From Isoetes taiwanensis (Eukaryota; Streptophyta; Lycopodiopsida; Isoetales; Isoetaceae), in NCBI GenBank assembly GCA_021234155.1, contig JAJEKV010000067.1, positions 3,217,279-3,281,278 on the forward strand: 64,000 nucleotides of DNA. Direction: 5' to 3'. Made by a program: the position numbers and the translations under genes. Within the stretch, counting starts at the first letter, position 1. Each line of letters begins with the position of its first letter. Shown here in pieces: positions 5,576 through 50,419 of the stretch. The notes under the pieces were generated by a model, which was not told the DNA's origin, did no database searches, and saw only the letters and a list, made by a program, of their open reading frames with translations.

Positions 5576-6605
5576 TGCAAGCTTCAAAGTGTGCAAAGGA
5601 ATTTTAAAACAGCCTTTGAAAGTCTTGGAAGAGCAACGGAATTTTAAAGTCATCTGCTCTGCGAAGTCTCAAAAGTCCAAATTTGAAATTGGGGTTAACT
5701 GAAGATCATCATTCTATTACTCAAGCTATCTTCTTCATGCAAAGGGAGCCGTTTGAAGAAGAGCTCCCACGGCCAATAAAGACTGCTGCACTCCTGCGAC
5801 GAAGCATCCGAAACCTTTCACAAAAACGGACAAATCGGTTTGCACGGCAGATTAACTATCACCCCTACTACTACTACTTTACATGGCGGTTGTAGAACAA
5901 TGAAAAGCATGGTTTGGCTCTTGAAAGCGGAACTGGATTAGGGCTCTAAGTTTCGAGGCGGTTCAACACCCACGATAGAAGCAAACCCCTGTTCCCCTTG
6001 CTAACCCGCCAAGAGCTACGCTGGGGTTACGCCATTCTCGGCTGATTGAAGAAGCCACGTCCGAAGCTAGGGGGTTTTGATTTGTTTAAACCGTCGGATC
6101 CATATTGAGCAGCTACAATTAAATTTGGAATAAAAAAATTCTTAGAATTGGATACACTGGCAAGCTTCAATTGCAACCCATTCACAATATCATCTGATGC
6201 ATTTCCAATGCAGATTGTTTTCTACTATCAATTGCCATAGTATGTTTTCCAGTTCCTATGAACTTTGTATTTCAGGCGGACATTCTCACGCAATTTGTAA
6301 CAAATAGAGCACATTACGCATGATGTGCAATTGATCCATAGATGCGGGCGGTTACACATAGCATATCAATACATGTCCAATTTGCTCCCGCAACTATATA
6401 AGCGAGGAAGAATAATGGTACATGCGTCGGGGTGTAAATGCACGAAGAAACTAACTGTACAAGCGGGGATGCCCACCTTGCCCAAACATACTGATGCCAT
6501 GACAACGAAATCCAAGCCCTAGCACCAAATCCAAGTTAGCATTCAGAAAATGAAAAACCAAACTAATTGAAGTAAGTAAGTAAATTTTCTACTAAGGAAA
6601 CAAAC
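5576..6605. other. Non-coding, no gene recognised
   Basis: After the kinase relic there are only short frames of no recognisable family. Nothing here supports a promoter, RNA gene or repeat. Confidence 0.5.
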
Positions 6606-6780
6606 CTGCAGGGCTTGTTGATCGTAGACTCCCAAGGAGCTCTGCATACCATTGTAGCCTCCGTCTTTGAATGCCCAGGTCCTTGCCACATTCAGCCCAA
6701 TGCCTGCTGTTTCATTCATGAATTTGGGCTGCAATATAAGACATCCAATATGCATTGAACCCATTCACATAGAATGGACC
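6606..6780 (-). pseudogene. Endo-beta-mannanase (GH5) exon relic
   Basis: On the minus strand two frames together give the N-terminal signature of plant mannan endo-1,4-beta-mannosidases: PFYVNGFNAYWM in one frame, then after a frameshift GLNVARTWAFKDGGYNGMQ and GVYDQQALQ in another. The latter corresponds to the family's GLTVCRTWAF..GGYNALQ..PGVYDE segment. A GT donor follows directly at 6605-6604, as expected of an exon end. The signal peptide and the catalytic glutamates, which lie in later exons, are not found. The family cleaves cell-wall mannans; this copy is a single broken exon. Confidence 0.75.
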
Positions 6781-7739
6781 TCCTATTGTAGAATGGACCT
6801 CCTATTGTAAAAGCCGTTTCCGTTGCCTTCGCAAAATTTTCGCCAATAGCTTCGCCATGCCTCACCATGATCCGCAGTAAAATGAAGCCTAAAATTCACC
6901 TATGAGAAGGACCCATTATCGGCAACAACCAGCTTTTGCAGAAGGAATGCAGCATCTCGCTTCCAAAACAATGACATGGCCATAACACGATCTAAACCTG
7001 GAGCCTTTTGGAACTCTGCGCTCAGAGATAGAGCTCGAAAAAATTGAACTCCACCGCAGCCGAAGAAGGAAGCGCCCTGTTTTTTCGACCGTCGGATCTG
7101 CAGCTCTAGATCTGAGCCGTTGGAGCTAGGGCTGGGTCCAACACTTACTGAATAACATTATAATATAAGATAAGATTGTATTATTGACTTGGGACCACAG
7201 CCTTGAAATTATAGGCTGACGCAAAAATGGGGTTTGACCCCATTGTCTTTTTGGCTCTACAGCCAGGGTTAGAGGATATGGTATATCATCTGGTATATTC
7301 TCTAGATCAAGGATCCAGATGGAACGAGTATAAGGATGGAACTAGTATAAGGATGGTATACCAACAAAAGAGACTCCAGCTGCGCAAGTGAATGGAGGTG
7401 GCGATGCTATAGCCATTGGTGCAAATTTTAGATTATTCTTGTTATATAGTGCAGTGATTACTGACTACTGGGACGGATGCAAATGAGGGTTCTAGATCTA
7501 CTCTTACATCTGGACTATTATTTCATTCTAGTTTATTGGTCTCTGCAATTGCACAAGGTTTAGCATCTAAAGGCAGAAAGGGAACTAAAGAACGGGCTCG
7601 TCTGGAAGTGCTAGGAAATCAAGCTCTACCTGGTACTTTTTTATGCACCGCAGATTCTCCATCACCATAACTATGCTCATTGTATATCCTCCATTTAGCA
7701 TTGCCAGGTTTATGAACAATACCTCAAGAAGATACACAG
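6781..7739. other. Non-coding, one repeat shared with 1.96 kb
   Basis: No gene is recognised. A block at 7128-7162 repeats the sequence at 1956-1991 (AGGGCTGGGTCCAACACTTA then an AT-rich run) in the same orientation. This suggests two members of one dispersed repeat whose other end I could not find. Confidence 0.5.
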
Positions 7740-7900
7740 TGAAACAATTACAACACAAGGTGCAGATCAAAGAAAATTTTGAGATGCCCGTTATGGAGGA
7801 CCTCAAGTCTATTAATAGAAACCTAGATATTTACACCAAGAACCATTTATAGCTCAACTGATCTTTTTCAGTTTTTAACAGCATGCAGAGCATTAAAGCA
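7740..7900 (-). repeat. 3' LTR of the gag-only retrotransposon
   Basis: This 161-bp LTR runs from TGAAACAATTAC to CATTAAAGCA on the plus strand, with TG...CA ends. It matches the split LTR at 17653-17719 plus 34627-34713 apart from substitutions and a small deletion. Confidence 0.8.
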
Positions 7901-8835
7901 GACTCCAAGGATTCATTGTTCTCCCAGTCACTTACAGATTCTTGGTCAACAAGAACGGCTATATTCCCTTCAATTTCACTATCTTCTTCTTCTTCTGAAG
8001 ATTTAGCAGAGGTATCTTCTATCATGCTTGCCAGAGCGGGCATTATTCCATCTTCTTTCACTAGATTTGGCCTTCCTGTATTTTTTGCTATCAACTCTCT
8101 CTTTGTCAGCCTTTTTGTCCCCAGCTTTCTTGAAGTGTCTACAATTCTTTGCAATATGGCCTTTCTTGCCACAAGACCAGCATTCAAAATAGTTTCTTGA
8201 AGCCTTGACTTTGGCCACATAGGCTGATTCTTCTCCTCTTTCTTGAGGAGAGGAGATGCTTGAAGCACGGCACCAATCATTGCCTCATTCTTCATTTTTC
8301 CATATTTACATCCCATGGCTTGTTTGATCGAAACATAGGATCCTGGAAGGCTTGTCAGTATTGCCATAGCCAAATCCTCATCACTAATAGAGTGATTTAG
8401 TGCTGCAAGCTGATCTGCTAGGCTTTCCATAGCACTAATATGATCAGTGGGATCATCCTCTTCCTTCATTTTAGCACTAAAATTTTTTTGCCACAGAAAC
8501 AATTTCAGTTGAATGTTTTCTTCAAGCACTCCCATCCTTCCTTTGCAGTGTTCTTTAATCTCACTAATAGGATCTGCCCATCCTTGAGCCCAAACATCAT
8601 GGACGTTTTTGCTCTATTATCCTCCTTCTATGCAGCTAGAGATGCCATTTCTTCTGCAACTTCTCCATCACTATCATTTCCTGCCTTCCCAATCTCCCGT
8701 CTTGGATCAGCTCCACTCACAACATCCCAGACATCATGTTCTTCTGGAATAGCCCGCATTTTCCAGAACCACACTGTGGCATTGGTTCGATCAAGCTTCT
8801 CCAGGTTCTTCGGATCCATCTTTAACTTGGCCATC
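7901..8835 (-). pseudogene. Copia-type gag with CCHC zinc knuckle, frameshifted
   Basis: Read from 8835, the product begins MAKLKMDPKNLEKLD, continues through a copia Gag core (HISAMESLADQLAALNHSISDEDLAMAILTSLPGSY) and reaches a zinc knuckle CWSCGKKGHIAKNC (8003-8218) in another frame. At least two frameshifts break it, near 8630 and 8215. Gag packages element RNA in the cytoplasm. No protease, integrase or reverse transcriptase follows before the 3' LTR, so the element would have depended on another copia for movement. Element 1 is inserted just upstream of the start codon. Confidence 0.8.
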
Positions 8836-8848
8836 TTGCCTTGCTTGC

Positions 8849-8852
8849 ACAA
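8849..8852. other. Target duplication ACAA, left of element 1
   Basis: ACAA directly precedes the left inverted repeat and recurs directly after the right one at 17612-17615. Confidence 0.75.
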
Positions 8853-8882
8853 AACAAAGTTTAAAATGAAACGCACTTATTT
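8853..8882 (+). repeat. Left terminal inverted repeat of element 1
   Basis: The 30-bp repeat starts AACAAAGTTTAAAATGAAAC and ends GCACTTATTT. A second AACGCACTT and a GAATCTTTGAAAGATTCC palindrome follow within 60 bp. From here to 9301 I see no gene, only AT-rich subterminal sequence. Confidence 0.85.
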
Positions 8883-9301
8883 GCTGGAAACGCACTTCAA
8901 AAGGAATCTTTGAAAGATTCCCTAAAATTCCCTTAAAAAAGTCCATTTTTAAGATTTTTTTGTGACAGGTGTGACAATTTAGTTAATTTAGGTACCTTTT
9001 TTGAGGGGTTGATTGAACATAACTTCCGTGCAAAAATTTCAAATAGCAATTTTTATCCTCCTATTTTAGAACAAAAAATAGTTACTTATGTAAAGTGTAG
9101 CAAAAGGGCAATAAAAAAAGCAAGGGTAGTAGAGTGACAAAGAAGTGATATATTCAAGGTTGTGAAAATTGTACAAAATTATGAACAAAATTGTCAAAAT
9201 ATAGGACATTTTGATGCACAAATCATCACCTGCACTTTCTGTTCTTTACATGTTCGAGTCATCGGACAAACTTACATTTTGCAGCAAGATCAGGATGCAT
9301 C

Positions 9302-12300
9302 TCATCCTCTGTCATTTATTCCCTGATCACTTGAGCCTTCATCCTCAGCTTCACTCTCAAAACTAGATGTACTCGAACGATCTTCTTCCTCACTGTCTAC
9401 AAGTGAGTCTTCATCATCATCTTTTTTTGCCATCTTTCTAGGTTGTTTGTCTAATCCACATGCCGACCTTATTAAAGTTTGAGTGACCATCGTAACTTAT
9501 TAGCGGCGGTCGAGAACAAAGTCATATGCAAGAACCTTTACTTCCAGCTAGATCTATGGCCGGCGGTGCTTGCTTTGGACTTAGCTCTCTTTCCCACTCT
9601 GTTTTTTACCATCTCCAAAGTATAACTCCCAATCAAAAGCATTGGCGTGATCGTTCTCATCTAGTGCACTTTTAATTGAGTGGGAATTCCATCTTCTCTT
9701 GTTACCTCCAGTACTCTAGCTAGCCAAAATGGCCTCCCAGATTCATCATTATCAGCTGGGACAGCTATGAGCATTCCTTTCTGAATCTCTGAGACTGAAC
9801 CAGATACTCGAGCAACTTGTTGTGCCGTGCGTCTGGGGCCAGTGTACATGACTCTGTCATCTTCATCTGAGCTAGCCAATATCTCTACATGTTCCTCTTG
9901 ATTCTCAACTTGCACAGGGAGAGTTTGCCTAGATGGCCAGTTGAATGTAACTGGTCTTCGACCTTGTAATGAAGCTTGCAACATGTCACGTTGCCGAGAA
10001 AAAAATTGAGGCCACCATAAAGCATCTGCCTCCCCAAAGTGGTTAGAGCAGGACTGAATACTTGTCTCAATATAATCCAATGATTTGTTTGAGTCAAATG
10101 CTCTTCCCTCCTTTTTACTTTTTGTGATTTCTTTCAAGCTTTTTAGAGGCATTTGCTCTGCAGAGAGCATGGAACTAGTATTGGAGATGGTGCGAGAATG
10201 AATTGAATACACAACGCTGGTCATACTTTGCAAGGATGTGGCATATTTCTTTCCTTGTAAGATGGCCTTGCCATCTACAAGTGAAATTTTGATCGATCTT
10301 TGAAATGTAATGTTTCTCAAGGGCTCAATAAAGCACGGTGACCTAGTTGATCTCTCCGAAAAATCCATTCTTTGAAATCATAAGTTTCTTCCAATAACTT
10401 CGATGTGCGGGCGAGGATTGTAGGAATCTTGGATAACCTCAATCATTGCTGGTAGGTGAGAGCTTTTTCGAGCAAGGCGTTTAGAGAACCCTCTTTGAAC
10501 ATCTGATCAATTTGATGCGTGTGTATGACCAACAAGCGAAACCAATCTTCACCTTCTTGAAGATTTGTTTCTCTACTAACGCATAACCTGATAAAGCAAA
10601 CAACGCTGATTCTTATTTTCCCTTGTCGTGTTGTCTAGGCGAAGATCTGAGAACCGGTGGTATATGTTCTAGATTGGAAAGAAGCTTATTCAATATTGTG
10701 ATAGTGAGATTTGGATCAGCATGAATGTTTGGATAATTCAAAAATGCCTTGCAAGATAGTTTTCCATTAAATACCATAGCACCAACAACATGCGGATGTA
10801 TGAAATCTTCTTCAGGCGACATCCTTAGGCACATTGACAAAATGTGGTAGGGTGGTCTTCTTACGGTCCATTCCATCAATAACAAGCGATATGTAGTTGA
10901 ATGGTTGTTCGATTTTTCTTCCTATGTTTTGTCAATTTTCTCCTTTCCAAAGATTGTTGTTCTCATTGCTTGTTCGGTTTCTCCTTCAATGCATCTGAAA
11001 TGAAAATATGTTTAGGAAAGAACCTACTTTTAGCTAGAACTAGGCAAGAACAAATCACGGAAGCTTACTTTTAGTGTGAAGTGTCCTTGCATTTTGTCTC
11101 TCGAGCTTTAATTGAGCATGTAGCACAAACGGACATCCGGTGCTTTCTAGGAATGGACCGCCTTGAGAAAACTCTTTTTCGAACCGCACGGTAAAGTAAG
11201 AGTAGCGACAAAGCGTTCTCCGACCTCAACACACATCTCCTTATAATTATAAGTAGACTTCTTGTTTTGGGGAAATTGTCACTCAAGTGGTACATGGGGC
11301 TGTTAGGGAGTTTCTCGCAAGACTCCTTAAAGAAACCTTCCATCCAAGAAACACATTGAAGGGCATGAATTACGGATATACCTCTGAATGGCGTTAGTCA
11401 TTAATGCACGGATTCTTGTCAAGCCTTTTCTTCAAAGGCGGTCAAGTCGTCTGTGCCTAAAGCATGAATCAATTTGAAGGCCGTTTGGCGGCGGCGTGGC
11501 CACCAGTTGTGTAAGTAAACTTCTCACCACAATCGGGCCCTAATATTGAAGGCTAAGTAGCCCCTTTGGTCTAGCGAGTCATTGAAGCTGTAACTATCAC
11601 GAATCAACCTCAATTCCTTTAGTCCAATCTTAAGCAAACAACGTTGAGAACAACAATGCTTTGTATGTGTTGCCCGCAAGTGAGCCTCGTCCATGAGTTT
11701 CTTTCTTCTAACGGTTGTACATGCTTTCTTGTGTAAGTTACGCAAGATTCTTACTTAGGGGCTTTGAATTGAACATGGAGTCTTGTGGCTTCGGTGGGTC
11801 CTCGTCCCCGAGACATCAACATGAGGTGTTTCTTAGGTCCGAGAGATCAACATGAGGTGTACTTGTAGATCTTTGAGAGGTTTGATGTGGGCAAGTCTTG
11901 GGGGGAGGTGCTTTCCCTCTCTCTGGGAAAAAGTAATCGAGGTTGGTGACGTAGTTGACCAGCTCCTGAAGTGTCGTAGAACACGGGGAGTTGCGTGTCA
12001 TGGCCCAGCTCCCACTTGTTGTAGTACCATTTAGCGAAATGGATGGAGTTAGGCGTAATTTGCCTCGGGGAGGGGAGCCTACGGTGGACTATAGGCGGCC
12101 TTTACTAAAAATTAACGGAGGAGGTAGTCCGAGCTCTCTAGCCTGTGGTGGAGTAAAAAGCATTGGTGGGGGCAAACGGCGTTCGGGGGCGGGGGGTGTG
12201 GTGGAGAATTGAACCGGTGGTGGAAGCCGAGGTGGTCGTGGTGGAGTAAGCTCACCGTGAGGCCGGGTGTTGGAATGTCGAGCTAGAATATTCATGACTA

Positions 12301-12316
12301 CTTCCCCGGTGTCCAT
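9302..12316 (-). pseudogene. Element 1 transposase, DUF7869-type, decayed
   Basis: Minus-strand pieces in several frames line up in family order. A proline-rich head starts at 12316 (MDTGEVVMNIL). Then come HCCSQRCLLKIGLKELRLIRD (around 11.65 kb), SIPRKHRMSVCATCSIKARE (11.15 kb), RLDNTTRENKNQ (10.65 kb), the fragments VEKQIFKKVKIGF and VGHTH then IDQMF (10.5 kb), GMLIAVPADNDESGRPFWLARV (9.75 kb) and an acidic tail ending at 9302. The LDN...ENKN and GHTH..IDQ motifs match element 2 (LDNCAGQNKN, GHTHEDVD) and probably form the catalytic core of an RNase-H-like transposase (inference). Many frameshifts and stops show it is dead. Introns may explain some gaps. The name DUF7869 is from memory. Confidence 0.75.
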
Positions 12317-12415
12317 TGAGGAGGTGTGAAACTCATTGCGGTGGGAGCCTCGCGAACAGGAGTTGAGGCTCTGCGGTTCTTTTCTCTCGAGCCATACCGA
12401 AAGTTAACGTCACAT

Positions 12416-12590
12416 CGTATAAATTTATACTGACGTAAGAATTAGACGCAAGTATAAATTTATCTGAGATGGTATAAATTTATACGAAAAGGGAACTCTT
12501 GGCGGCAGAGCGGTATAAATTTATACTGAGATGGTATAAATTTATACGAGGAGGCGTAACATAGAACGTAAAACGGTATAAATTTATCTG
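12416..12590. repeat. Palindrome array A, element 1 (6 copies)
   Basis: Six copies of GGTATAAATTTATACC or close variants start at 12416, 12451, 12471, 12512, 12533 and 12575. They lie just upstream of the transposase start, in the gap between the two divergent genes. Confidence 0.9.
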
Positions 12591-12854
12591 AAAACTCCAC
12601 GTTTTTGTATTGGAAACTTTATGGAGAAACGCTATATCTGGCGGCTTAGCGGGGTACTTAAGCCCGGCGCCCGGCCACTATTTTCCATATATCTCACGCG
12701 CCAGTCCGAAGTTTCAGCGGTCCATATATACCCCTTCTTATTTGCTCTCGAGGGCGTCTATCGCGGCTAGTCCATACGGTCATGGCCGTAAGTCTACTTT
12801 CCGTACTGTTTTAGTTTCTCTTTTGTTTTAATCTGTTAGAGTGGTAGCTCGAGC

Positions 12855-13186
12855 GGTATAAATTTATACCGAGATGGCTCTGGATCGGTATAAATTTATC
12901 GCCCGTCTTCGGCGGTATAAATTTATACCGCTCTAGAACACAATCGGTATAAATTTATACCTTAAAGTGTTCTGGGGCGGTATAAATTATACCGCTTCGA
13001 GTACAGCAATATAAATTTATACCGTTTAAGAACACTTGCGGTATAAATTTATACGAATGTGTTCTGGGCGGTATAAATTTATACCTCTCGAGCTTCGTAT
13101 GAAGTATAAATTTATACCCGATCCGGTAAAACCATCTCGATATAAATTTATACCGCTTCAGCTTCGGCTCGAATAAATTTATACCG
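12855..13186. repeat. Palindrome array B, element 1 (11 copies)
   Basis: Eleven copies of CGGTATAAATTTATACCG or variants have core starts at 12855, 12887, 12914, 12946, 12979, 13008, 13040, 13070, 13103, 13139 and 13170. Spacing is 27-36 bp with a mean of 31.5 bp, equal to three turns of B-DNA. The spacers are unrelated. The array fills the intergenic region between divergent genes, where promoters should lie. A single further copy is at 13818. Confidence 0.92.
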
Positions 13187-13870
13187 TTTCAAAATTGTTT
13201 CGGAATCTTGGTGTCTAGTGCTTAAAGAATGGACCCGAACCTCAATATTTTAGTAATATTGTTGAGTTTTAAGCTTAAATAAGACAAAAAAAGTGTTAAT
13301 TAATTGTGGATTTTATGCCCTTTTAGCCTCTGTTTTTTCTGTTTTTGTGTGTCAAAAAGTAAAAAAAATGTTACATTTCTTCTACGAGAAAAAATGGTTT
13401 TAACATACATTCCGGCCCAAGGATAAAATTTGTGCGAAAGGCCAATCTTCGAGCCAATCTTCACAGGCTGCACCTCACGCGCCCACAGACGTCTGAACTA
13501 AAAGACCCGGGCGGAATGTGCGTCCACAGGCGCAAGAGAGAGCAAACCAAGCTGGCGTACTGTTTGCTTGTGCCATCGATCGGGGAAGGGCAAATTACAA
13601 GGCCGATGATTATTATCCTGCGGCGAAATGATAAACACGGTTTACTCTGAAAACGAAGATGAACTTTTAATGAAGTGCATGCATGACAATGGGGAAGTCT
13701 TCTATGTTCTCGATAGTAAAATGCTTAGATTAAGCATGTGCAAGCCCAAAAGGCGTGAATGAGTACATATCTGAAAAATTACAAGGGCGGCTATGTAAGT
13801 TATTCTTAGTGGCTTAACGTATAAATTTATACCGTCATCCTCCTAACTAAACCCTGCATTACAGGATATA

Positions 13871-14815
13871 GTGGACATTTTGATGTCAGTGGTGCTTTGC
13901 GATGAAAAGGTGTTGGTCAAAGGTCTGTGGTACCCCACTACTATCGAAGAGGAAGAAAATGTTGACGAAGTAGAAGAAGAAGAGGAAGAGGAGGAAATAG
14001 TAATACCAAAGGGAAAGGGTAGGAAGCATTCCCTGGTAGTTGATACACAGCCTCCCACCAAAAAAAAAAGACTAGAACCACAAAGGCATTGACTATAGAG
14101 GAGTCGTGAGAAGCTCTTGAAAGGCTCGGGGTGCGGATATTGTTGTGAAGCCCGTGGACAAGTCAAGTGCTATTCTAAAAAAGGTTAATGACACTAAACT
14201 GCTTAAGCAAACAATTTCCTTGACATTGAGCACTATTAAGAGGCCCCCTAAAATGAAGATGGGGTCGAGGTTCTTGGTCACGAAAGTCTGCGGCACATGT
14301 GGCTATACTCAAGCAAAGAATGAGAAGGAATCCTCATGCCCATGTGTTGCCACTTGTTGTAATGGTTGGCGAGTCGGTGCAACCAACTAAAAGATTATAA
14401 AAAGGCTAACTTTGAGGGATTACACATATTTTTGTACTTGGAGGCACACATAGTTACAAAGCAAGGAAGGAACTTTCAAAAGAAGAATCCCGTGAAGTTT
14501 GGAAGAGCGTAGAAGCACATATCTACGTTGGAGTCCGCAGACGAGGAAGCAAAGGTCATTGCCGTGAGTCATAATCTCGACAATGACTTCAGACTAAAAA
14601 TGAGTCTTATAGACAAGATCCGCTTCATGCACCGGGAATACGTAGAGTTCAAGCAAGTGCATGGGGAGGACTTCAAAAAACAAAAGAACAAGCTCCAAGA
14701 ACATCGAGAAGCTTGTGTCACAGAGTGCTGCCTCAGCTACGATTCAGATAAGAAGCCCATAATGGCTGTGAAGCAGTACGACAATTACTTCCAGCTTGCT
14801 TTCAGAGATGGTCAA
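13871..14815 (+). pseudogene. Element 1 N-terminal ParB-like region, frameshifted
   Basis: The first open piece (13871-14092) has an acidic run of glutamates and a nuclear-localisation-like PPTKKKRLEP. The next (14145-14390) has a CGTCGYTQ cysteine pair. The stretch at 14416-14530 gives THIFVLGGTHSYKARKEL, which resembles the GGTH/DGQH nucleotide-binding motif of ParB/sulfiredoxin-fold proteins. Then 14528-14815 gives SADEEAKVIAVSHNLDNDF and a helical segment up to a good donor (GTGAGT at 14816). Frameshifts separate these pieces, so as it stands this half is broken, unless spliced in a way I cannot see. It precedes the methyltransferase exons on the same strand and is very likely the same gene. 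Confidence 0.65.
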
Positions 14816-14919
14816 GTGAGTAAAAGCTTTAATTTAGTGGTCTGTAGTATGCTTAGCATAGCTGAGTTTGTATATTAACATCGAACTTTGTAAATGCGTA
14901 CCAAGGAAGACCAGCCCGC

Positions 14920-15223
14920 GGTATAAATTTATCACCGTGTGCCCTGAGTCCGCGGTTTAAATTTATCTGCGACCCATTACGCGAGCGGTATAAATTTATA
15001 CCGTCACCGTTCGCGGTATAAATTTATACCGTGCACCGATTTTGTATAAATTTATCATGACCCGGCAGATAAATTTATACTGCGTGCACGGGTGGCCGAT
15101 ATAAATTTATACCGTTCCTGGCAACGGTATAAATTTATACCGTGCAGTTGTGATTGATATAAATTTATACCGTTCTCGGCAACGGTATAAATTTATCGTG
15201 TTTCAGGCATATAAATTTATACC
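14920..15223. repeat. Palindrome array C, element 1 (11 copies, intronic)
   Basis: Eleven copies start at 14920, 14954, 14987, 15015, 15043, 15066, 15098, 15126, 15156, 15184 and 15208, with a mean spacing of 28.8 bp. The array lies within an apparent intron: a CAA/GTGAGT donor is at 14816 and methyltransferase coding sequence resumes by 15438. Confidence 0.92.
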
Positions 15224-15437
15224 GTGGCTGGTATTCCGTGTGCAATAATATAGTAGACAGAGTAACAAACGCTTGTTAAGCCATTCAACACTAAAATACT
15301 TGTGTTGGATTCCATCGCGGTGTGTGGGATCTTCAAGAAAGAATATTTTGTATGTTCGAAGATGGTGAGCTGAAAGAACAATCTAGCTCTGCCGGAAAAA
15401 AAACCAAAAAAAAGGTGGTGAGGCAAAACAAAAAAAC

Positions 15438-17214
15438 ATGAGCATTGTACCCTGGACGCAGCTACAGGGTTTGAAAAGCAAAGAAATTTTTGTAAGACTT
15501 CTAGAAAAAGTTGTGGCAAAAGAATTTACTCTCGACGAAATGGCCAAAGAAGCTAAGACGTAAGCCACACTTTTATGTCGTGTTCTTTTTTTCTTAATTT
15601 TGTTTGATCACATTTTTCCCTCTGCAGTCAGAAAGACATTGTCACCTGCCAGGCAGAATTAATGAAGCAACTTAACCTGGAGGACTGGGAGGAGTGCAAG
15701 GCTTTATATCCAACCTCTACTACAGATACTATTATTAGAGAGCACGCTGTTAACTTCAGTGGCTGGGTAAGTTGTACAGAAAATACTTTTTATTTTCGTG
15801 CCTTTGTCTCACAGTTTTCTTGCAGAATAAGAAGAAAGGCCTACCAACAGGATTTTTAAACCTGGTTCGTAGGGCCAAGGAGGAGAGGCAGAGACTGAAA
15901 GCAATTGAGCAAGGAAAGCAAGTCAGCACTAGCAGCTTTGACACTACTTACGAGAGATTTATTACATTTGATCAGGACGTCCAGTACAGGGTTGTTCAGA
16001 GTGACTGCACGAGGCTGGGGACTCTTTTAGACAAACAAAACTTTACGTTATGCATTGCAGATATTCCATATGGCTTCAAAATCAAGGATAGCACTTTTGA
16101 CGAGGAGGCTTTTACTCACGTGCAAGTCCGTTCTTTCTTGGATGGCCTAAAAGAAGTCACGACATCTGAAAACTGGAGGGTCATCATTTTTCATTCCGAC
16201 CTGCAGACGATGTCGGTGCTAAAGCCATTGGGAGCTGTCTGTAACGCGGGCTTCGAAAACTGCGTATGGTAAGCTTTGAATTTCTTGCTTTTCTATTTAC
16301 TTTAACACCACGGTATAAATTTATACCACAGTCGCCTCGTGGTATAAATTTATACAGCAAGGCAATGGTGGTATGAATTTATACCGCCACACCACTTAAC
16401 TAACTTATTTTGTTCGTTTTCTTTCTGCCAATGTTTAATTGCTTTTTTGTTTGGCAGGCTAAAAACAAATGTCAAAGGACATGGTGGTGGTCCGCGCTTA
16501 GTAAGCTGCTTTGAACATTTCCATATTGGTTTTTACAGCGCGAACGCCAAAAAAACCATGGTTCATTTCAACACGCAGAATGAAAAGACTCCACCCTGCA
16601 ACGCCTTTCAGTTTCCGGCTGTTCTACAAAAATTGAGAGACCCACAACGACAAGGAGCTGTGGTATCTCATTATCAAAAGCCACAGCGGCTAATTAATAA
16701 TTTAATTCAGTGGTTTTCTCGCCCAGGAGACTGGATTCTAGATGCATTTTCAGGCTCAGGCACCACAGCAGTTTGCGCCCTTAAGCAAGGGCGCAATGTT
16801 GTCTCCGTCGACATAGACCAGGACAAAATAAGTTTCATCAGGACCAGGATAAGCTCTTGTGAATCCTTTCCTGATGAAAATGAGGAACTGGGAGCAAAGA
16901 ACGGTGCCAGCGATGTTAAAGGCACTTATACAGAAATACAGCCTCCACTTACAGGAAGAAAAGATGAGGAGGTGGAGTTTGTCGACTTGGAGCCTGTGGT
17001 GCCTGAGCAAGAGAAACCGCCTGTGCCGGTAGGACTCGAATCAGAAGGAGGCGTCTCTGCTGTTGTAAGCTCGCAAGAGCCAGATCCTAAGGGATTAGAG
17101 AGTCATGTGGACTGGGGAGAGCAGTATAAATTTATACAGACAGAGTTCTTAACTACTTCCATTGTAAACTATGTGCTAAGTATTATTGTAATTTATTTTG
17201 ATGAAGATTTTTAA
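15438..17214 (+). CDS. N4/N6-type DNA methyltransferase (beta order), four exons
   Basis: Four exons, 15438-15559, 15628-15766, 15826-16268 and 16458-17214, join in phase through GT-AG introns to give 486 residues from the in-frame ATG at 15438. The real start is probably further upstream. The domain has the beta-class order: motif IV CIADIPYGF (DIPY at 16060-16071) comes first, then FQFPAVLQ and QRLINNLIQWFSRPGDW, then the SAM-binding motif ILDAFSGSGTTAVCALKQGR (from about 16735) and VVSVDID. The family transfers methyl groups to exocyclic amines of adenine or cytosine; DIPY is nearer DPPY than SPPY, so the target base is unclear. The last ~70 residues are acidic and variable, and one element palindrome (17123) is read as QYKFIQ. 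It is an accessory gene of element 1. Confidence 0.85.
16312..16385. repeat. Palindrome array D, element 1 (3 copies, intronic)
   Basis: Three copies start at 16312, 16341 and 16370 (spacing 29 bp), entirely inside the 16269-16457 intron of the methyltransferase gene. The intron's splice sites are intact. Confidence 0.92.
17123..17138. repeat. Single element-1 palindrome inside coding sequence
   Basis: AGTATAAATTTATACA is one base off the palindrome consensus at each end and lies inside the last methyltransferase exon. It is the only one of the 33 copies in open coding sequence. Confidence 0.8.
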
Positions 17215-17581
17215 ATTGAAAGCTTTGTCTCTTCAACAATACTTAATTAAAACAACTCTTTCTTGCTCCATGATTTCACACTCTTTGTCTTTCCAATGTT
17301 TGACTTTCTTAGTACTTATATTAAGCTTGCAAAAAAACAAACTATATTTCCTTCTGTTTTTAACAATAAATACTTACTGAGTTATCAAAATTAATGTATC
17401 TCTCCTCAAAACAAGCATTTTTTTTTTTTTGCCCTCTTTTAAAAATGAAAAGACTTCAAAAATGTTGCGTTTTTGGGGGGATTCCGAATGCTAATTGCTC
17501 AACAATCTATTTTGCTCCCTATTTTGTGTGTTTTTTTCAAGTTTTCTATTTTTATAAAGGAATCTTTCAAACGCACTTCTT

Positions 17582-17611
17582 AAATAAGTGCGTTTCATTT
17601 TAAACCTTGTT
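17582..17611 (-). repeat. Right terminal inverted repeat of element 1
   Basis: Read on the minus strand it starts AACAAGGTTTAAAATGAAAC, one mismatch from the left copy over 30 bp. A related GAAAGATTCC motif follows inside. The stretch 17215-17581 between gene end and TIR is AT-rich and without further genes. Confidence 0.85.
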
Positions 17612-17615
17612 ACAA
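17612..17615. other. Target duplication ACAA, right of element 1
   Basis: This is the partner of the ACAA at 8849-8852. The pre-insertion leader would read continuously across a single ACAA-containing site. Confidence 0.75.
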
Positions 17616-30869: not shown

Positions 30870-31562
30870 CGGTCTTCCCGCCAGACATGACATGTATATG
30901 GTATATATGGAGAATATTGCATTTTATGCAATAAATTCTCACGGCATTTTATTCCATTTATTGCATTCGAAAAAAAAGAATTTCGAAATTTTATATAGGC
31001 TAAATTAAAAATGATTTTAAAGGCAAAATTATCAAGGCTAAAAAATGACTTGTTGAGTTGGGGAATTATTTTAGGTCGTATAGGAAAATTTTCTATACTG
31101 CTGTGATGAATCAGAGATTTCTCATGTGGTTGATTTATAGCGTTCCCGAGACTTTGTTGAGACAAATGCAGAGACAAAATTTTAGAGAAAACACTTTGGA
31201 GACAAAATGCTTGGAGAAAACAGTTTGATTTTCTCATGTCTACCTTATCAGTTATATGTCTTTTCGTAATCATATATCCAAATTTTCGATAATTAAAATT
31301 TGGATATATTTATATGAATGTCATTTCCTTGTTGTTGCCACGAAAATTCTTGTTTTAAATGATTTCGTTTACACCCATTGTTATTATTATATTAAACCTA
31401 TTTCCAAGGAATTTCTTGCTTTAAAAAAAAATTGATTTACCTCTACATATTCCAAAAATGTATGTACTTTTCTTATCTTATGGTGTAATAATTTTTTCCT
31501 ACTCATTGACTAAAAAGGTGCAATTTGTCTAGGTCAATGGTGCCTCTCCAACTCAAGATGGT

Positions 31563-34323
31563 GTGCAACATATTGAAAAGAGAAATATCAATGAAAAACC
31601 AACTCTTAGCAAGAATGTTGAAGAAAAACAATTAGTCCTCTATAGTAGGGTGCAATGGAGGAACAAGAAGGTGAGAATCATGCACAAGTGCAACAAGGAA
31701 ATAGTAGGCCAAGGAGTCATTGTGCTAGCAGATCCTGGTCAAGCTGTTAATGATGAAAGGCTAGGGGAAGACAATATTGGTATTGCAATTTCGATGTTGG
31801 AAGACAACTGGAAAGGTAAAGGTTTGGGTGACAAGGAATGTTTTGGTTGTGTCAAGCAATTGGAGGTTCCTTGCATCATGGCATGGCCTATAAGTAGTGT
31901 TCAATTTGTGGAGGATTATATTTTTCCAGAGCCTGAGGTTGTTGGGGACAATGATTTTCTTGATATTGATCCATTGGCAGTTGGAACTCTAAACCTAGGC
32001 AAAAGGGGAGAAGTATCAGTTGCCAGACATTATCCTAGCAAAAGAGCCAAGTTGATTAGTGACACCAAACATGAGACAATGGTGAAGGTTAGGGGCTCAG
32101 ATTGTTGTTGGAGTGCTTGTATGCAATTCTTTACAATAGAACAATTGGTGGAAGCAAGAGCCACTTTTCAAGAGTACACTGTTGATGAGAGGAGGACCTA
32201 CATGTACACAATCTTCGAGCATGCACTTCAGGATGAAAGAAACCCAAACAGAAAAAGATACCCTTTGCTAGGAAAATGGATATGTGCAAAAGCATGGCAG
32301 AATATCCATGCAATTCCAACTTCTTCATGGCATAATTGGCAAAAAAAACAGGCAGAGGGGAACATGATTGCTTTACATGGAAATAATGGTTTGTTGAGAC
32401 CAACAGCTAGGACCTTGGCTGCCAGGGAGATATTTGAAAAATATATTGATTTCAATGCAGAGTCTATGCCACACAAAAGCAGAAGGGATGAAAAGGGAAG
32501 AGCAGTTGTTGAGAAAAGGTTGCCATCACATTGTACTCAAAAGAGTATTTTGGAAGAAGTGAATTCCCTACTTCGAGAATTGGAAAATCTTCCAATATCC
32601 CAACCTAGCTTTAGTAGGTTATGGAAAATGCATTTCAATCATGTCACCATAGCAACTTCAAACAACTTTGCAAAGTGCAATTTATGTGCTAAGTTGAAGG
32701 AGACTCTTGATAAGACTGTGCAACCTAGTCAAAGGGCTAGGATAAGGGAGCATATGAAGGACCATATGACGGACCAACTATCATGTAGATCATGTTATTG
32801 GATGTGGAGGACTTTATCTGCATTGGAACCCAATAACTATTTATGTATTATACATGACAAGATGGACCAGCAAAAGACTTGTCTTCCACAATTCAAGTAC
32901 ATACCAAAGTTATGTGGAAGATCATACCCTTGACAGATCTCAATGACTGGGGCAATCTTGCATGGGCAGACTCAAACCTACTATGGCCATTTTAGTTTGG
33001 AGTTGTGGAGTGATGGTCCAGATTTTCATATTGGGAGTATCATGAGGTGTTTGAGAAACTATAAAAATGGATACAATGGTCACCTCCAGGACCCTACAGC
33101 TAGCCAGGCACTACATAGAGCATTGTTAGATGGAAACCCTAACAATATTGAAAAGTTCAGCAAGGCAAGGTTTAGAAGCATGGGTCTAATGAACATGTTG
33201 GAGCTTCAACTTCACGTGCTAGACCTCAAGATCTACCCAAAAGGTTTCTCTTGCAACTTGATAATTGTGCTGGCCAAAATAAGAACAGGTGGATGTTTTC
33301 TTTCCTATCCTACTTAACAGCTGTGGGGATATTTGAAAGAGTTAATTTAGGGTTTCTTATGCCCGGGCATACCCATGAGGATGTGGATGCATTATTTGGC
33401 AAATATAGTTGTATACTGAAGCAGCAGACAGTGACCAACTTTCCTAGGCTAATGGAAATCTTGCATGAATGCACTACTCCAAACCCTATAGCTTCTCTCA
33501 TAGAAGAAGTGCCTGATTGGAAGAGCTTTGTGGATGGTTATACATTGGATCTTGAAGGTCCCCTCTGCAGTTCACTTTTTGGGTGAGAGATGGGATTCCA
33601 ATCTTCCAATGGAAGATGAAACCTTCAGAGGATGAGTGGAGAGGAGGGGAGGAAATATGGCGTAGAGATGAGAATGGCAAGCCTATGATACCTCTAGGTC
33701 AACCAAAAGCTCTAAAACCTACTGAAGAAGTGAAGCAATTGGGATTGACTAAGGAAGGAATCCAGGACTATATAAAGCATTGGCAAACCAATCCAGATGA
33801 CACCAACCATGCCTTGGTGGCTTACTAGAAGAAGGTGATTAATCTGTTGGGGGAGATAGACACATCCTTAGATGAATTGAAAGAAGGGTGGTTGCCTAAA
33901 ACTAGGTGGAAGACCTTAGCACGTGTTGAGGATGTTGATGACACTGTAAGTAGCATTCGCAAGCAATATGCTCCTCCTCCTTCTGACAAACACTATGTTG
34001 GTCCTAAGAATAATAGGCCAAAGTTTCTAGGCATGGATGCTTATGAACCTTCCGCTGACTTGGAATGCCACCAATTTGTGGTAGTAAAGCCAGCAGATTT
34101 AGATACATATCCAGTGTGGTTGGGGTTCACTATCTCTGATATTTGCAAAGAAGAAGGTAATATTAACTTCAACCATGTGCGGGTGGAATGGTGGTGTCCA
34201 GTGCATCAGTTGACCAACGTATCGGATAAAGAAAGACACTCAGATTGTTGGACAAAGAGATGGAGGAGAAATCCGAGTGATCCTGATCTTTGGCTAGACT
34301 ATGAAAGTGTTTTGTACTTATAG
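31563..34323 (+). pseudogene. Element 2 transposase, DUF7869-type, with a few frameshifts
   Basis: The first frame (31563-32933, 456 residues) has a head with some likeness to the TNP1/En-Spm-associated domain (IVGQGVIVLADPGQAV, ERLGEDNIGI). Then come DCCWSACMQFFTIEQLVEAR, a long helical region, SFSRLWKMHF and CNLCAKLKETLDKT. After a stop it continues with CLRNYKNGYNGH and, after a frameshift, LDNCAGQNKNRWMFSF, VNLGFLMPGHTHEDVDALFG and the C-terminal HQFVVVKPADLDTYPVWLGF and VEWWCPV. The DN...NK and GHTHED motifs are likely catalytic or metal-binding (inference). About three frameshifts or stops (32934, 33250-33317, 33586, 33828) break it. It is the better preserved of the window's two transposases and runs divergently to the ParB-like gene. 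Confidence 0.8.
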
Positions 34324-35789: not shown

Positions 35790-38031
35790 TCTACTTATTT
35801 AAAAAGTTTCTTGGGGTTTTTGCTGATGCCGGTGTCCCCTTTCCGGCACGCTTTTTCCGGCAAAAACGCGTTTTTCGGCTATTTTCTCTCTTCTTTCAGT
35901 TTTTTGGCCAAACGTCTTCTTCCGGCGACATTTTCTCTTTCTTTCAGTGGTGGGCGGTGGGCACTTAATGGGCGGTAGGCGGTGGGTAATGCAGCCGTTA
36001 CCCTGGGGGATAACGTTGAATCCTCAAATTTAGAGGCGCTGAATTCTTCACAGAGAGAAGCTATGGGCAGTTCAATCAGGTGAACACAGCTATTTTGGCA
36101 AGTAGTTTTTCCATGCCCACTACGGAAGGGGAAACTTTCGGGAGCAGGGGGTTTCGGGGAAATCGCGGCGGCGCCCGCCCGAGCGGCGGCGGAAAGAAGC
36201 GGCGGCGGCCGAGCCAGCTTCCTAAACACCCCTCGCGACCGGGTTTCCGCCGTAACCCACGAGACCCTAAAATTTCCTTATTCTTGAACTGTGATGAGAA
36301 GTCTATCGAATCCAAGGAAGTTTTCAAAAAAAAGCTCAAAAGAAGCCATTTTAATCGCTATTTCGCCTTCATCCATGTAATCTCTTGATTTTTTTGTGGA
36401 AGATCTATTATGGTCGGAGTAGGAAACGAAACACACCTTTTCATTTGAAGAAAATGGAGGAATGCTTTCGCTAGGGCTTGTAGAGCTTTTGGCTATGGCA
36501 TCTGACGCGAGCGAGCTTCCGGCTATGGCTTCGGGTCACGGCTATGGCTTTCTGAGCTTCGCGATACGAGCGTAGCTTCCGGGTCACGGTTATGGCTTTT
36601 CGAGCGAGCATCCCTACCACGCCTATAGATCCAAAACAGGATTCATTTTGTAATAGATTCGTGCTCGAACAGAGATGTCTTCACGCAGAGCAAAGAGACC
36701 CCAAATTTTGCTCCTCAAGAAAAACTCTAGCGGCGCCACCGGATCGCCCGCCCGAAAACTTAGGCCCTTTTTTCCACGACAAGGTTGTCCCAAATTTTTA
36801 AAAGTGTGATTGGGCCACTTCAAAGAAATAAGACTCTAAGGCTTTTCCACGGGCGTTTTTATGACATGTCTTATCGTATGCCGCACTGTTTTTCTTTGTC
36901 CCCCATTTTCTTCCTGGGAAACCCCCGCCACAATTCTACGCATTACACCAAAATCCAAACAATCGAGTCTGTTTTTACCGCTGAAGTAGGATGTCGCAAA
37001 AAGAAATTTCTTGGAACTCGAGCGCGTCATTTGATCCGATGTTGGAGATTTTCGAACTCGATTTTTCATGTCTAATGGAGGATTCTTGGTTTAGGGTCCG
37101 ATTCAACCGATTCTTGGTTTAGGGTCGATTTTTTTTTTCAAACAAGAAGCTCTCGATTCTTGCTCGATTCTTGCTCAAAAAGCTTTTTGATTCTTGGTTT
37201 AGGGTCCGATTCAAAGCCGATTCTTGGTTTAGGGTTGATTTTTCAAACAATAAGCTTTGTTCTTGCTCAAAAAGCGACTTCCATTCTTGCTCGAAGCATC
37301 TTCGATTCTTGGTCCGGGCTTTAAAGCCATGTTCGAGGTCATTCAAAGGCCGCCGGGTTCTTGTTTAAAAAATCACCCAACAGACTTGTTCTTTTTACGT
37401 AGGGTCTTCTGGAAATCGAATTCCATACTATTTTGCTTTTGGGTTTAAGATCTGCAGCAGAAAACCTTCTACGGATTTTTGAGGCAAGTCAATTGCTACA
37501 GCGTGTCTTTGCTCTCTGGAAAATCGTCATTGCAGCATGTCTATGGAAAAGCTACATTATAAGACATGTCTTATAACGATAGTACATGTCTTATATTTCA
37601 GTAATGGAAAATCAATTTTTTAGGACGTGTCTTATGTATGACATGGAGCTTACGTGGAGCTTAAAAGGGTGTCCTATAAAAATGTGACAGCCATAAAATA
37701 AGAGTGCTGTGGAAAAAAGGGCCTTAGACCCTGAAGTTACTGGAAAAAAAAAGTTACTGAAACTGTCGGAAATTTTAGGGTCTCGTGGGTTACGAAAGGG
37801 GCTTTTCTTCTGGAGCAACGGGCAACGGACTGGAGCTACAACTGGCTGGAGCTTCAGGTAATTTTTTTGAGCCCATACCTTTATCTCATACCTCTCTGAA
37901 TATGAACTCGATCGATTGCAGCTGTTTGGTACCCGAAAGTGATTTTTCGCTGGCTTTTCCTTTTCAGACAGTATTTTTTTCTGGTGGGAGCGCAACATGG
38001 CCGCCTTACACTAAATATGGCAGTGGATTCC

Positions 38032-47097: not shown

Positions 47098-48690
47098 TCA
47101 CTCAATCATCAAGATATGCATGGCATCTACAAAAACTCGTAGATTATTTCTAGATGAACCGCCAAAACCTGCAGCTGTGAGCGCTAATTCCTTAATCTTT
47201 GCAATCCTGCTCCGACAACTCTTACCATCCTCGCCCTCTAGTAACCTGAACACACCTTTTCTTACATCCTCCGAACACACGAACCCACTTTCATCTCTAG
47301 AAGCATCCTTGAAATCTAAAGCAATCTTCCACACATGGACCAACATCTTATGGTTGAGATGTTGGTCACTCATACAAGGCCATCCAAGCATAGGCACTCC
47401 AGCAGAAATGCTCTCTAGAGTAGAGTTCCACCCACAATGAGTTAAGAAGCCGCCGACAGAAGGGTGAAGGAGGACCTCCATTTGAGGAGCCCAGGGAACT
47501 ATGGTTCCAAGGCCTTCTTTGAGTAGTTCATATATGCAACTTCCACTATCTTCATCCCCAGTCAAGGTGGGTCTTTGAACCCAGAGAAATGGCTTATTAC
47601 TAGATGCAACACCCATGGCTATGGTTATGAGTTGGGCTTTACTTATAGTTGATATACTTCCAAAGGAAACATAGAGGACTGAGGCTGGATCTTGTGTATC
47701 CAACCAGAGGAGGCAAGATCTATCCTCCAGAGTCAAGCCAGCTCCATTAGCTTGGAACTGCAAGTCAAAAGCAAAGGGATGAAGAGGACCTACAGGCAGA
47801 TAGTGTTTTGTCCTGGTCTCCTTTCTGATCTGTTCTACTGCCTTGGATTCCAGCTCTTCAAAACTGTTCACTAGCACCCAATCTGCTTCTCTTATTTTAA
47901 GGTATGCTTGGAGAACCCATTCTAAATCTTTCATGTCGGGGCTTTGTTGGGCGAGGAAGGGGACATCTTCAAGCATTATGGGCACATCTGGGATGGTGGA
48001 AATAACCGGAACGCCACTGTTTCGAAGATTTTCTGAATATGCAAATGCAGTGATCAGTTAAAAGGCACTTAAAACCAGAGAGCTTCTTTTTTCCTTAAAG
48101 TTAAATGCCAAAGTGTGTGTAAAACGATAAGTAACAGAAATCAGACCACCTGGAACGGGTATGAGCCCTTGGAGCCACAGTTCAGCGAGCCCCTTCAGTT
48201 GCAGGTCCCCAGCAACAGAGTTAGTAAGAAATGCTACCTTCTGTATTCCATATTTGTTTGCAATTGGAGGCACCCAGTCCACCAAATAGTCGTAGATGAT
48301 GCATGTAACAGCCTTTTCTGCACAGACCTCTTTTCTGACAAGTTCTTCAAACTGGTCTCTCATACTATGAGCGCAATCGATCAGGGTTGTGCCGCTATCC
48401 TTCCCACAAACATTTATGGTCTCTTCCAGAGGCAATCCGGCCAGCCCCACAAGCCTGAAATCAAAATCTGGATTGCTTTGTGAGGAACTTGAAGATTTTT
48501 CAGCAGTGTTGAGGAGCCTTTGATGGTTGCCTTCAGTATTGACAAACGTAATATCAAATCCCATTGTTGCTAGGATTTTGCTTAGATGCATTAGAGGATT
48601 TATGTGCCCGTCCACTGGAAACGGTAGCACAATTGCATGCGGTTTTTTCTGGCGCTTTTCTGCCATTTCTGATGCCATAGCCATAGCCAA
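47098..48690 (-). CDS. UDP-glycosyltransferase (plant family 1), complete, two exons
   Basis: Exon 1 (48690-48150) and exon 2 (48032-47098) join in phase across a 117-bp GT-AG intron to give 491 residues, the normal UGT length. The enzyme transfers sugar from a UDP-sugar to a small acceptor in the cytosol. Visible features are the N-terminal IVLPFPVDGHINPLMHLSKI with the catalytic His, IIYDYLVDW with the probable partner Asp, VLYVSFGSIS, and a complete C-terminal PSPG box from WAPQMEVLLHP through FLTHCGWNSTLESISAGVP to MLGWPCMSDQ. The Met repeats at the start (MAMAMASEM) leave the exact initiator uncertain. The overall look is UGT85-like, but substrate cannot be told. No frameshift or stop is seen; it is the only clearly intact host gene here. 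Confidence 0.93.
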
Positions 48691-50419
48691 ACTGAACTAT
48701 AATAATACTATAAATTCTAACGGCCTCGGCCTATAAGACACTGCAACTTAAAAAGACGAGCAGTTGGGCGTAGGTGAATATTGCAGAATAAAATATCTCT
48801 ACTTTCTCATTCAGGGGAAAAATATTTGAAGATGTGACTTTATGTTCATTCATTTGCATCTCTTTATCAGGAAATCAGATCTTGCACGACCACTATCTGG
48901 TATCAAAAGTTGCGTCATGATATGTGGAGCTTTCTCCCCCTCCCTCGATGTCCTCAATCCCGTTATATAGTATGTTCTTGTCCAATAATGTAACATTTTT
49001 TTGTCCTTTGATAAGGGGAGGAAAAAAAACAAAACAATAAATTGTTTTGTTGTGGTCCTAGGGGTGGGTGTCAATTGGCTGCATACGTGAGTTGTAAAGT
49101 GGAAAGTAAAAAGCACCAGTTTTTTTTTCTTGGATGTGCACTTTTTAGCTTATCATGTGGGCGGATATATGTCCACTTTTCGGCTTATCGTGTTGGGCGG
49201 ATGTTATGGTTTTGACACGTTGCCTTACCCTGGCATATGGACCAGGGGGAGAATTCAGCTTGAGTGTCGTTTCCTTTGCCCTGCTTTCCTTGCTAATAAG
49301 GAAAGAGCTAAGGGAGATTTTCCACTAGGATGGGCCTGCCATGTTTCACACACTTAAGAGGCGTGAACATGTCAAATGGTCAAAAATTCGTCTAATTTGT
49401 TCTACCAAGGTATCAATGGATACCTAATCAGATATCCTATACGTCTATCAGAAAATTGCCCTTAAAAAATCTATGGTTAAAGTCAGGGGTATGTAGGCGC
49501 CCCCGTCACCACACGTGGCCTCTTACGCCATGTCTAGATCCTACTTTCGAGCCCACCAAAACCCTGCCCTCGCTGACTAGAGTCGCCAGGTTTCGTGTAA
49601 CCATGATCCAAACCTCGCTAGCGGACATACCTCGGCTTGCCACATGCGAAACCTTAGTCTAGCACACAAGGTTCCACCTCACGTCCCCCCATGGCCTGGC
49701 ATCGCAGTGCTAGCTTGGCCGACGGCCTCACGCAAATATTGCATTCCCAAGGCCCAAAATTACCATCATGGCCCAATGATCCCTGAATGTTGGTACAAGG
49801 ACCATCATTCGTTATTATATGTGGCCACCTTTGCCCGCTTTTGCCAAAAACTCTCTTCTCTAAGACGGCCCAAAAATCCCTTCTCAGCAAAATTTGAGGG
49901 GATCATGGACTCCAGTGCCTCGCACAATCGGGCAAAGGCACTTATACCATCTCAGGCTTTAAAAGGATGAGATTTTTGGTTCAAATCGCATCTCTTGCGA
50001 AGTCTGAAGCTCATTTTGATCTGCAACATTTCATTTGCCTGCCTGCACAGTTCAATTCCAAGTTCAAGGGTAAGGTCTTTTACTCCAAGCTCTTTGGTTT
50101 ATGTTCAATCTAATTTATCTAGTTCGCATCCTCTTGGTCTGCAACATAATGGAAGGGCAATGGAGGCATGGTCAAGGCATCTCAAAAAGCGCCTACCATA
50201 AGCTTCCTAGCGCACTATCTCCTCCGTAGAAAAGAGAGTGCATGGGCCATACACAGGAGCAAATCCATGCTAGTAGGGCTGATACAAAATATAATCACTC
50301 CATATTGGGTCCACACCACATGCCATCAATTGCTCAATAGCAGTAGCATTGCCATCGTCAAAAACAATCAAGAAGAACTTTCTATTCAGCACTAGGAGAT
50401 AATTAGTTATCAGCCCGAT
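48691..50419. other. UGT upstream region and unassigned sequence
   Basis: This holds the UGT promoter side, with a TTTATAG run near 48715 on the minus strand as a possible TATA box. It is followed by about 1.5 kb with no recognised gene. The block around 49490-49700 has the look of an old retroelement piece but no ends are visible. Confidence 0.4.

Follow-up and report, generated by a model that had tools for sequence, protein, structure and literature searches.

Introduction

Several described systems place DNA-modifying or sequence-recognising proteins in or near mobile elements. In the VANDAL/VANC system of Arabidopsis, motifs in the same orientation are dense in non-coding DNA and VANC causes its targets to lose methylation (PMC5735166, in the part of the text available). 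Fungal TET/JBP DNA transposons carry a modification enzyme beside the transposase, an arrangement thought to counter silencing; the enzyme oxidises 5-methylcytosine (5mC) and adds no methyl groups, the superfamilies include IS3EU with 6-bp target-site duplications (TSDs), hAT, Zisupton and more, and the term 'ParB' is absent from the accessible text (PMC12730594). Among retrotransposons, Dam-like adenine enzymes occur in DIRS elements and DNA methyltransferases (DNMTs) in Symbiodinium and Klebsormidium elements; these are retroelements, not cut-and-paste elements, and a ParB domain or palindrome array goes unmentioned in the portion of the source at hand (PMC5890265). The bacterial-type amino-methyltransferases of bdelloids (N4CMT) and Marchantia (an N4-methylcytosine, or 4mC, methyltransferase) are host genes, and N4CMT has an SPPY motif and a chromodomain (PMC8885841, as excerpted). 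Here we describe a DNA transposon of the lycopod Isoetes taiwanensis that occupies positions 8853-17611 of a 64,000-nucleotide stretch, called the window below (assembly GCA_021234155.1, contig JAJEKV010000067.1, positions 3,217,279 to 3,281,278, forward strand), and that carries a divergent pair of genes, for a DUF7869 transposase and a predicted amino-methyltransferase, together with arrays of a short palindrome.

The element shares with VANDAL/VANC an element-encoded protein and a short motif at high density in its own family's non-coding DNA and introns, and in both cases each family has its own motif, which has diverged along with the protein. VANDAL motifs are 8-9-mers in one orientation in MuDR-type elements, and VANC removes methylation (PMC5735166), whereas here we find palindromes, a modelled ParB fold, a methyltransferase, a DUF7869 transposase and a 4-bp TSD. 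The locus is also like the TET/JBP transposons in setting a modification enzyme beside the transposase, like DIRS in being a mobile element with its own DNA methyltransferase of predicted adenine type, and like the bdelloid and Marchantia cases in placing a bacterial-type amino-methyltransferase in a eukaryote; unlike N4CMT, the enzyme has D[I/L]PY at motif IV and is encoded inside a transposon. ParB proteins load at palindromic parS sites. With ParB/parS and Noc the locus has in common a modelled ParB N-domain fold and palindromic sites as presumed targets; it differs in the residues at the CTPase motif, in the adjoining methyltransferase and in its arrays of about ten to thirty sites. A ParA partner was not noticed in the elements, no search aimed at ParA having been made. 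The titles and abstract openings listed in literature searches, which were mostly open-access and had Repbase outside their scope, include no DNA transposon reported to carry an N6/N4 methyltransferase or ParB domain, and 'DUF7869' had no mention in the literature searched, which held few subscription papers or preprints. As far as we found, the set of parts combined in this putative epigenetic effector, borne by a transposon, has not been described before, and we know of no earlier ParB-fold protein, here a predicted one, in a eukaryotic DNA transposon.

Results

The window copy is a degraded copy of a DNA transposon with terminal inverted repeats (TIRs) and a 4-bp TSD, and a member of a large plant transposon family. 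The 30-bp TIRs and the ACAA duplication had been proposed in a first-pass annotation made from the letters of the sequence, and both hold: the repeats are 97% complementary and the two ACAA copies are identical. The genome, 1,658,258,908 bases in 1,110 contigs, contains 1,359 exact matches to the 24-bp TIR core (679 forward, 680 reverse) and 0 to the reversed control. Wherever both TIRs were recognised, in 14 of 14 elements, a perfect 4-bp TSD flanks the element, a count that leaves out L012, which is without a left end, and L034 and L035, whose right ends lie beyond the stretch read. A search for the empty target site with joined flanks gave 91 candidates, and of the 40 matches scored 11 cross the join, each as one alignment that starts at base 1 and extends to base 216 or further (of 240); the best, on C258, is 92% identical over 224 bases. 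With TIRs and a TSD, and as a multi-copy sequence with an insertion-free site, the element represents a class II DNA transposon lineage of 8-9 kb whose TIR starts with AACA. A copia-type gag (PF14223) lies at window 7831-8876 (-), and the element sits inside or just upstream of its start; the transposon is thus nested in a repeat, other copies of which show the empty site.

The transposase gene of the window is in pieces. The first-pass annotation had taken it for a DUF7869-type relic, and in tblastn it does match the DUF7869 transposase of relatives, on which PF25273/DUF7869 is found with expect values (E) of 1.1e-52 on L010 and 4.4e-51 on a 987-residue frame of L032, and also on L011; two window fragments searched against Pfam gave no match. 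The protein has D, DN and GHTHDQID blocks. Its predicted model is weak, with a predicted local distance difference test score (pLDDT) of 44.4, and a PDB profile search returned nothing convincing (best E 0.5). In L032 the methyltransferase N-terminal part, from about 6121, is followed by unrelated open frames (6420-9159), and the 987-residue transposase frame is open. The window also holds a second, distant DUF7869-like transposase at 31533-34323 (+), with DKMDQQKT, LDNCAGQNKN and GHTHEDVDALFGKYS; its 466-residue frame gave no Pfam match, and there is neither a methyltransferase segment match nor a palindrome nearby.

A rough first look at the genome yielded 9,911 DUF7869 candidates and 1,444 N6_N4_Mtase candidates. 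When 150 listed DUF7869 matches were compared with 190 listed methyltransferase matches (150 to PF01555 and 40 to exon DNA), 30 pairs lay within 15 kb of each other among the matches listed, against 0.5 expected. All but one of these listed pairs are in opposite orientation (29), and 28 have the divergent layout of the element, 21 of them at 4.9-6.2 kb; the exceptions are one same-orientation pair and one with the partner on the other side. The DUF7869 transposase and the divergent N6_N4_Mtase gene are therefore a recurrent pair. Nine TIR pairs were fetched by their spacing, seven of 8.4-8.8 kb and two of 2.26 kb, and all seven full-length pairs contain DNA of both genes; the two short ones gave no match to either gene at the threshold used. 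The proposal that this is a mobile element with its own amino-methyltransferase, present elsewhere as a TIR-bounded gene pair, is thus borne out. Its opposite, a methyltransferase that is a normal host gene away from these ends, was not shown among 16 methyltransferase-centred loci (6 picked for unusual matches, 10 spread down the list by eye), a sample that does not cover the other genomic matches: transposase pieces lie within about 6 kb in 11, and none was found in the stretch fetched for L017, L018, L024, L026 and L027. Among eight sampled DUF7869 matches lacking a listed partner, four show segments and motifs of the ParB part or the methyltransferase where the element's layout would put them.

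The main mechanistic clue, absent from the first-pass annotation, is a set of palindrome arrays specific to each branch of the family. We recognised three lineages, each with an array of its own GTAT-N6-ATAC palindrome, the centres being AAATTT, TCCGGA and GAATTC in lineages 1, 2 and 3. Lineage 2 is represented by L010-L014, four chosen for PF01555 matches with long open frames and one by rank; the divergent gene pair is present in L010-L013, L014 shows no transposase, and the TIRs differ (AACA..ATTGC..ATTAAACGGGAG) and come with 4-bp duplications. Lineage 3 comprises L019, L034 and L035, and the left end of the latter two starts AACAACGTTCAAAATTGAATGCAC. The lineage 1 palindrome GTATAAATTTATAC has 12,556 genomic sites versus 17 for its reversed control, that of lineage 2 (GTATTCCGGAATAC) 3,720 versus 0, and that of lineage 3 (GTATGAATTCATAC) 64 versus 11. 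Allowing up to 2 mismatches, there are 21-36 sites per element in lineage 1 (n=8), 12-15 in lineage 2 (n=5) and 9 in lineage 3 (n=2). Two bases separate the lineage 1 palindrome from that of lineage 3, and the counts therefore cross at this level; with exact matching (including CpG-decay variants for lineage 2) the lineages are clean, save for one lineage 1 site in each lineage 3 copy.

The sites avoid the conserved exons. In 15 of 15 elements no palindrome lies by half or more in a conserved exon, though 61-72% is coding by the exon definition used, in which exon ends were trimmed by hand to conserved sequence; the only site that touches one does so by 1 base, at window 17124. Spacing is regular, at 28-33 bp, or about three helical turns, in 120 of the 208 lineage 1 intervals under 160 bp, and at 41-43 bp, about four turns, in 82 of 126 lineage 2 intervals. 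The lineage 1 spacers are barely alike (0.32 versus 0.27 when shuffled), so spacing has been kept with little sequence and simple tandem duplication does not account for it; those of lineage 2 have extended palindrome arms in common (0.55 versus 0.25). The central CpG of the lineage 2 palindrome is often altered, TCCGGA to TCCAGA or TCTGGA (51 versus 71 intact), as expected from deamination of host 5mC.

Array and ends also outlive the genes. The two 2.26-kb elements, L008 and L009, align at the DNA level with the seven full copies in the two ends and the array only (in L008 at 96-188, 1339-1710 and 1987-2361, and similarly in L009), and they have 11 and 8 palindromes, respectively. Exon peptides gave no match in L008 and one weak match of 22 residues, to the N-terminal segment MT1 (7e-5), in L009. 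Of 41 methyltransferase copies, the 36 with 180 or more aligned residues went into a FastTree phylogeny. Their palindromes gave a label to 33 of them (11 lineage 1, 19 lineage 2 and 3 lineage 3), while three, L017, L018 and L027, had too few sites for a label. Palindrome type agrees with the methyltransferase clade in 33/33 of the copies so labelled; support is 1.000 for lineage 1, for lineage 3 and for the two joined, the rest being lineage 2.

The methyltransferase gene (METHYLTRANSFERASE) had been read as a divergent gene of four exons. It is real and divergent, and it is longer than that, with six conserved coding segments across window 13502-17124. The DIPY and FSGSGTT motifs reported earlier are in frame, as ADIPYG and DAFSGSGTT, motif I (FSGSGTT) coming after motif IV, and the last exon matches PF01555 with an E of 2e-15. 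The spliced catalytic domain matches the same family, N6_N4_Mtase, at 3.3e-20 (73.4 bits versus a cut-off of 26.7), and its solved relatives in the PDB are CcrM (1.3e-11, the best), MboIIA (2.3e-8) and RsrI (2.8e-7); chains of N4-cytosine enzymes rank lower, the first so named at 0.0015 and PvuII at 0.015. By closest sequence match, then, the predicted enzyme is a CcrM/RsrI-type amino-methyltransferase. Motif IV, scored by aligned position in 32 copies of lineages 1-3, is D[I/L]PYG in 24 (11 ADIPYG, 11 ADLPYG, one TDLPYG and one CDIPYG) and different or gapped in the remaining 8; none of the 32 has the canonical [DNS]PPY form, with DPPY or SPPY in 0 of the aligned copies. SPPY has been assigned to N4-cytosine and DPPY to N6-adenine enzymes (PMC8885841, in the passages available). 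Motif IV is D[I/L]PY and never SPPY, and the closest relatives of solved structure act on adenine. Adenine is therefore the more probable of the predicted targets, N4-cytosine ranks second as less likely, and a leaning towards N4-cytosine is not supported.

Selection on the gene was estimated in unsaturated pairs of 10 lineage 2 copies, for which synonymous divergence (dS) is partly saturated; between lineages it is saturated in nearly all comparisons. The median ratio of nonsynonymous to synonymous divergence (dN/dS) is 0.25 for the ParB exon (44 pairs, range 0.05-0.58), 0.14 for the motif IV exon (45 pairs, 0.07-0.78) and 0.07 for the motif I exon (45 pairs, 0.03-0.58), and these low medians point to purifying selection despite later decay. 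Outside the family, phage relatives of the enzyme have 27-30% identity in the 15 records listed of 105, one locus in viral contigs has a related enzyme at 27% identity, and the genome contigs searched for a prokaryotic source gave no match.

The second of the six segments corresponds to the ParB-like 'GGTH' stretch noted upstream of the catalytic exons. It is present in the window copy as LGGTHSYKA and across copies as LGG[T/N]HS[Y/F]KA. A model of the same region in L015, aligned with VIA-align, matches the N-domain of Myxococcus xanthus ParB (7bnk_A) over 97 residues with a Z of 11.1 and a root mean square deviation of 2.1, followed by ParB/Noc, PadC, KorB and sulfiredoxin chains. Profile searches gave DUF6551 (0.0023) with other weak rows in Pfam and a ParB family at 0.039 in NCBIfam. 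The fold supports the ParB assignment. The segment is thus modelled as a ParB N-domain fold and, as predicted from genomic sequence, is probably fused with the methyltransferase segments in one protein.

Elsewhere in the window, an open frame of 1,124 residues at 60407-63778 (-) contains integrase and reverse transcriptase domains of copia type, and a gene resembling UDP-glycosyltransferases occupies two frames at 47101-48696 (-), with PF00201 on 47101-48057. A perfect 27-nt inverted repeat at 36251-36277 and 37768-37794, about 1.5 kb apart, possibly marks the ends of a small transposon.

Table 1 Features of the transposon copy at window 8853-17611
Feature	Position in window	Strand	Evidence or remark
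Target-site duplication ACAA, left	8849..8852	.	Same as 17612-17615
Left TIR, transposase-side end	8853..8882	+	30 nt
DUF7869 transposase gene, degraded relic, several frames	9311..12262 (about)	-	tblastn with L035 and L005 transposase and window fragments
Main array (CG)GTATAAATTTATAC(CG), between divergent genes	12417..13184	.	13 sites, up to 1 mismatch
MT1, conserved N-terminal coding segment	13502..13750	+	L007 segment matches by tblastn (E 1.9e-31), with 1 stop
Single palindrome between MT1 and MT2	13819..13832	.
MT2, ParB-like coding segment, broken here	13874..14815	+	11 stops in aligned frame
Second array, between MT2 and MT3	14988..15222	.	6 sites
MT3	15322..15560	+	Conserved coding segment
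MT3b	15626..15766	+	Conserved coding segment
Motif IV exon (ADIPYG)	15829..16269	+	Motif in frame and segment alignment
Three palindromes between the two catalytic exons	16313..16384	.
Motif I exon (DAFSGSGTT), PF01555	16459..17124	+	Pfam 2e-15
Single palindrome at end of conserved coding sequence	17124..17137	.	Open frame of this copy continues through
Right TIR, methyltransferase-side end	17582..17611	-	30 nt
Target-site duplication ACAA, right	17612..17615	.	Same as 8849-8852

Discussion

The studding of each lineage with its own palindrome suggests that these elements recognise and chemically mark their own DNA. As in VANDAL, a family-specific motif is dense in the non-coding parts of the element; the array is kept by gene-less derivatives and changes in step with the protein, and it thereby resembles VANDAL/VANC, while Pfam scans of the element proteins, made without a dedicated VANC or MuDR profile search, returned DUF7869 and N6_N4_Mtase. 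The reading we consider most likely, at about even odds, is a self-marking system, in which the ParB-like methyltransferase would recognise the palindromes of its own lineage, as ParB recognises palindromic parS, gather along the element in cis and place N6-methyladenine (6mA), or less likely 4mC, on it or close by. Such a mark, or the bound protein itself, might then keep the element accessible to expression and transposition or, alternatively, set it apart from the silenced repeats of the host, and gene-less derivatives with termini and array would use protein made by full copies. A stricter version, in which a ParB-type clamp serves as the self-recognition device, loading only on its own arrays and spreading over the adjoining element DNA while the fused methyltransferase writes 6mA there, seems to us unlikely.

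Several observations weigh against self-marking. Binding of the protein to the palindromes, and any methylation, is something we infer. Motif IV is without the usual first proline (D[I/L]PY, not DPPY), so the predicted activity is uncertain; the upper ends of the dN/dS ranges reach 0.58-0.78, with dS partly saturated; and no fully intact gene pair was found among the elements whose frames were listed. The L015 model is weak overall, with a mean pLDDT of 51.9 and a predicted template modelling score of 0.37 (its ParB part is mostly at 67-85), and Foldseek alone found no ParB match with it (best E 0.3). The ParB CTPase motif is GERRxRA; in its place the protein has GGxHSxKA, and these altered residues make use of cytidine triphosphate doubtful. 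That the sites are 'non-coding' depends on the choice to trim exon ends to conserved sequence, and in the window the frame runs on through the palindrome at 17124. A general GTATN6ATAC code was rejected, being unenriched genome-wide (40,900 versus 40,905); only the specific 14-mers are enriched. Given its weak MT1 match, L009 may keep a scrap of the gene. In the other four of the eight sampled partnerless DUF7869 matches, neither a methyltransferase segment nor a motif stands where one would be expected; there are thus also DUF7869 elements that lack the methyltransferase, or copies that are truncated. Finally, palindrome type is expected to follow the transposase tree as well, so its co-divergence with the methyltransferase is silent on which protein binds.

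The chief rival as array-binding protein is the transposase. Other DNA transposons have iterated internal or subterminal transposase sites, and the arrays could be enhancers of this kind, the methyltransferase being a separate accessory gene with its own target. The 2.2-kb gene-less copies keep TIRs and arrays, as expected if the transposase needs both, and palindrome type would follow the transposase just as well. However, the arrays lie between the genes and between methyltransferase exons, not near the ends, and palindromic sites suit a dimeric ParB-like protein; we regard this alternative as possible, if somewhat unlikely.

Rather than opposing silencing, the methyltransferase might act on its element as Dam does on IS10, coupling transposition to replication or limiting copy number through hemimethylation. 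Its closest solved relative, CcrM, modifies adenine, and the palindromic centres are symmetric and could therefore be hemimethylated, but apart from the one at 17124 no window palindrome lies in the TIRs or between them and the conserved ends of the genes, and we hold such a role to be decidedly unlikely. Least probable, and in our judgement very doubtful, is a catalytically dead protein that acts solely as a sequence-specific anchor or activator: the missing first proline of motif IV (D[I/L]PY in 24/32, none DPPY or SPPY) would fit it, whereas all three lineages retain FSGSGTT together with the motif IV residues D, P and Y, and dN/dS is low in the catalytic exons.

The real roles of 6mA and 4mC in vascular plants are disputed, and reports question 6mA in plants (PMC12695648, from the part available). 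The I. taiwanensis genome has about a thousand amino-methyltransferase candidates (1,444), of which sampled copies appear to have been under purifying selection, beside dense arrays of defined sequence, and these palindromes make the question testable: whether they are methylated, when, and by which lineage. If self-marking is right, the family would join VANDAL/VANC as another case of self-recognition by an element, with a different chemistry. On the stricter clamp version, which we hold to be unlikely, each lineage would in addition own an epigenetic address that is private and heritable and that its gene-less derivatives share in trans, amounting to a parS-like 'self' code in a nucleus.

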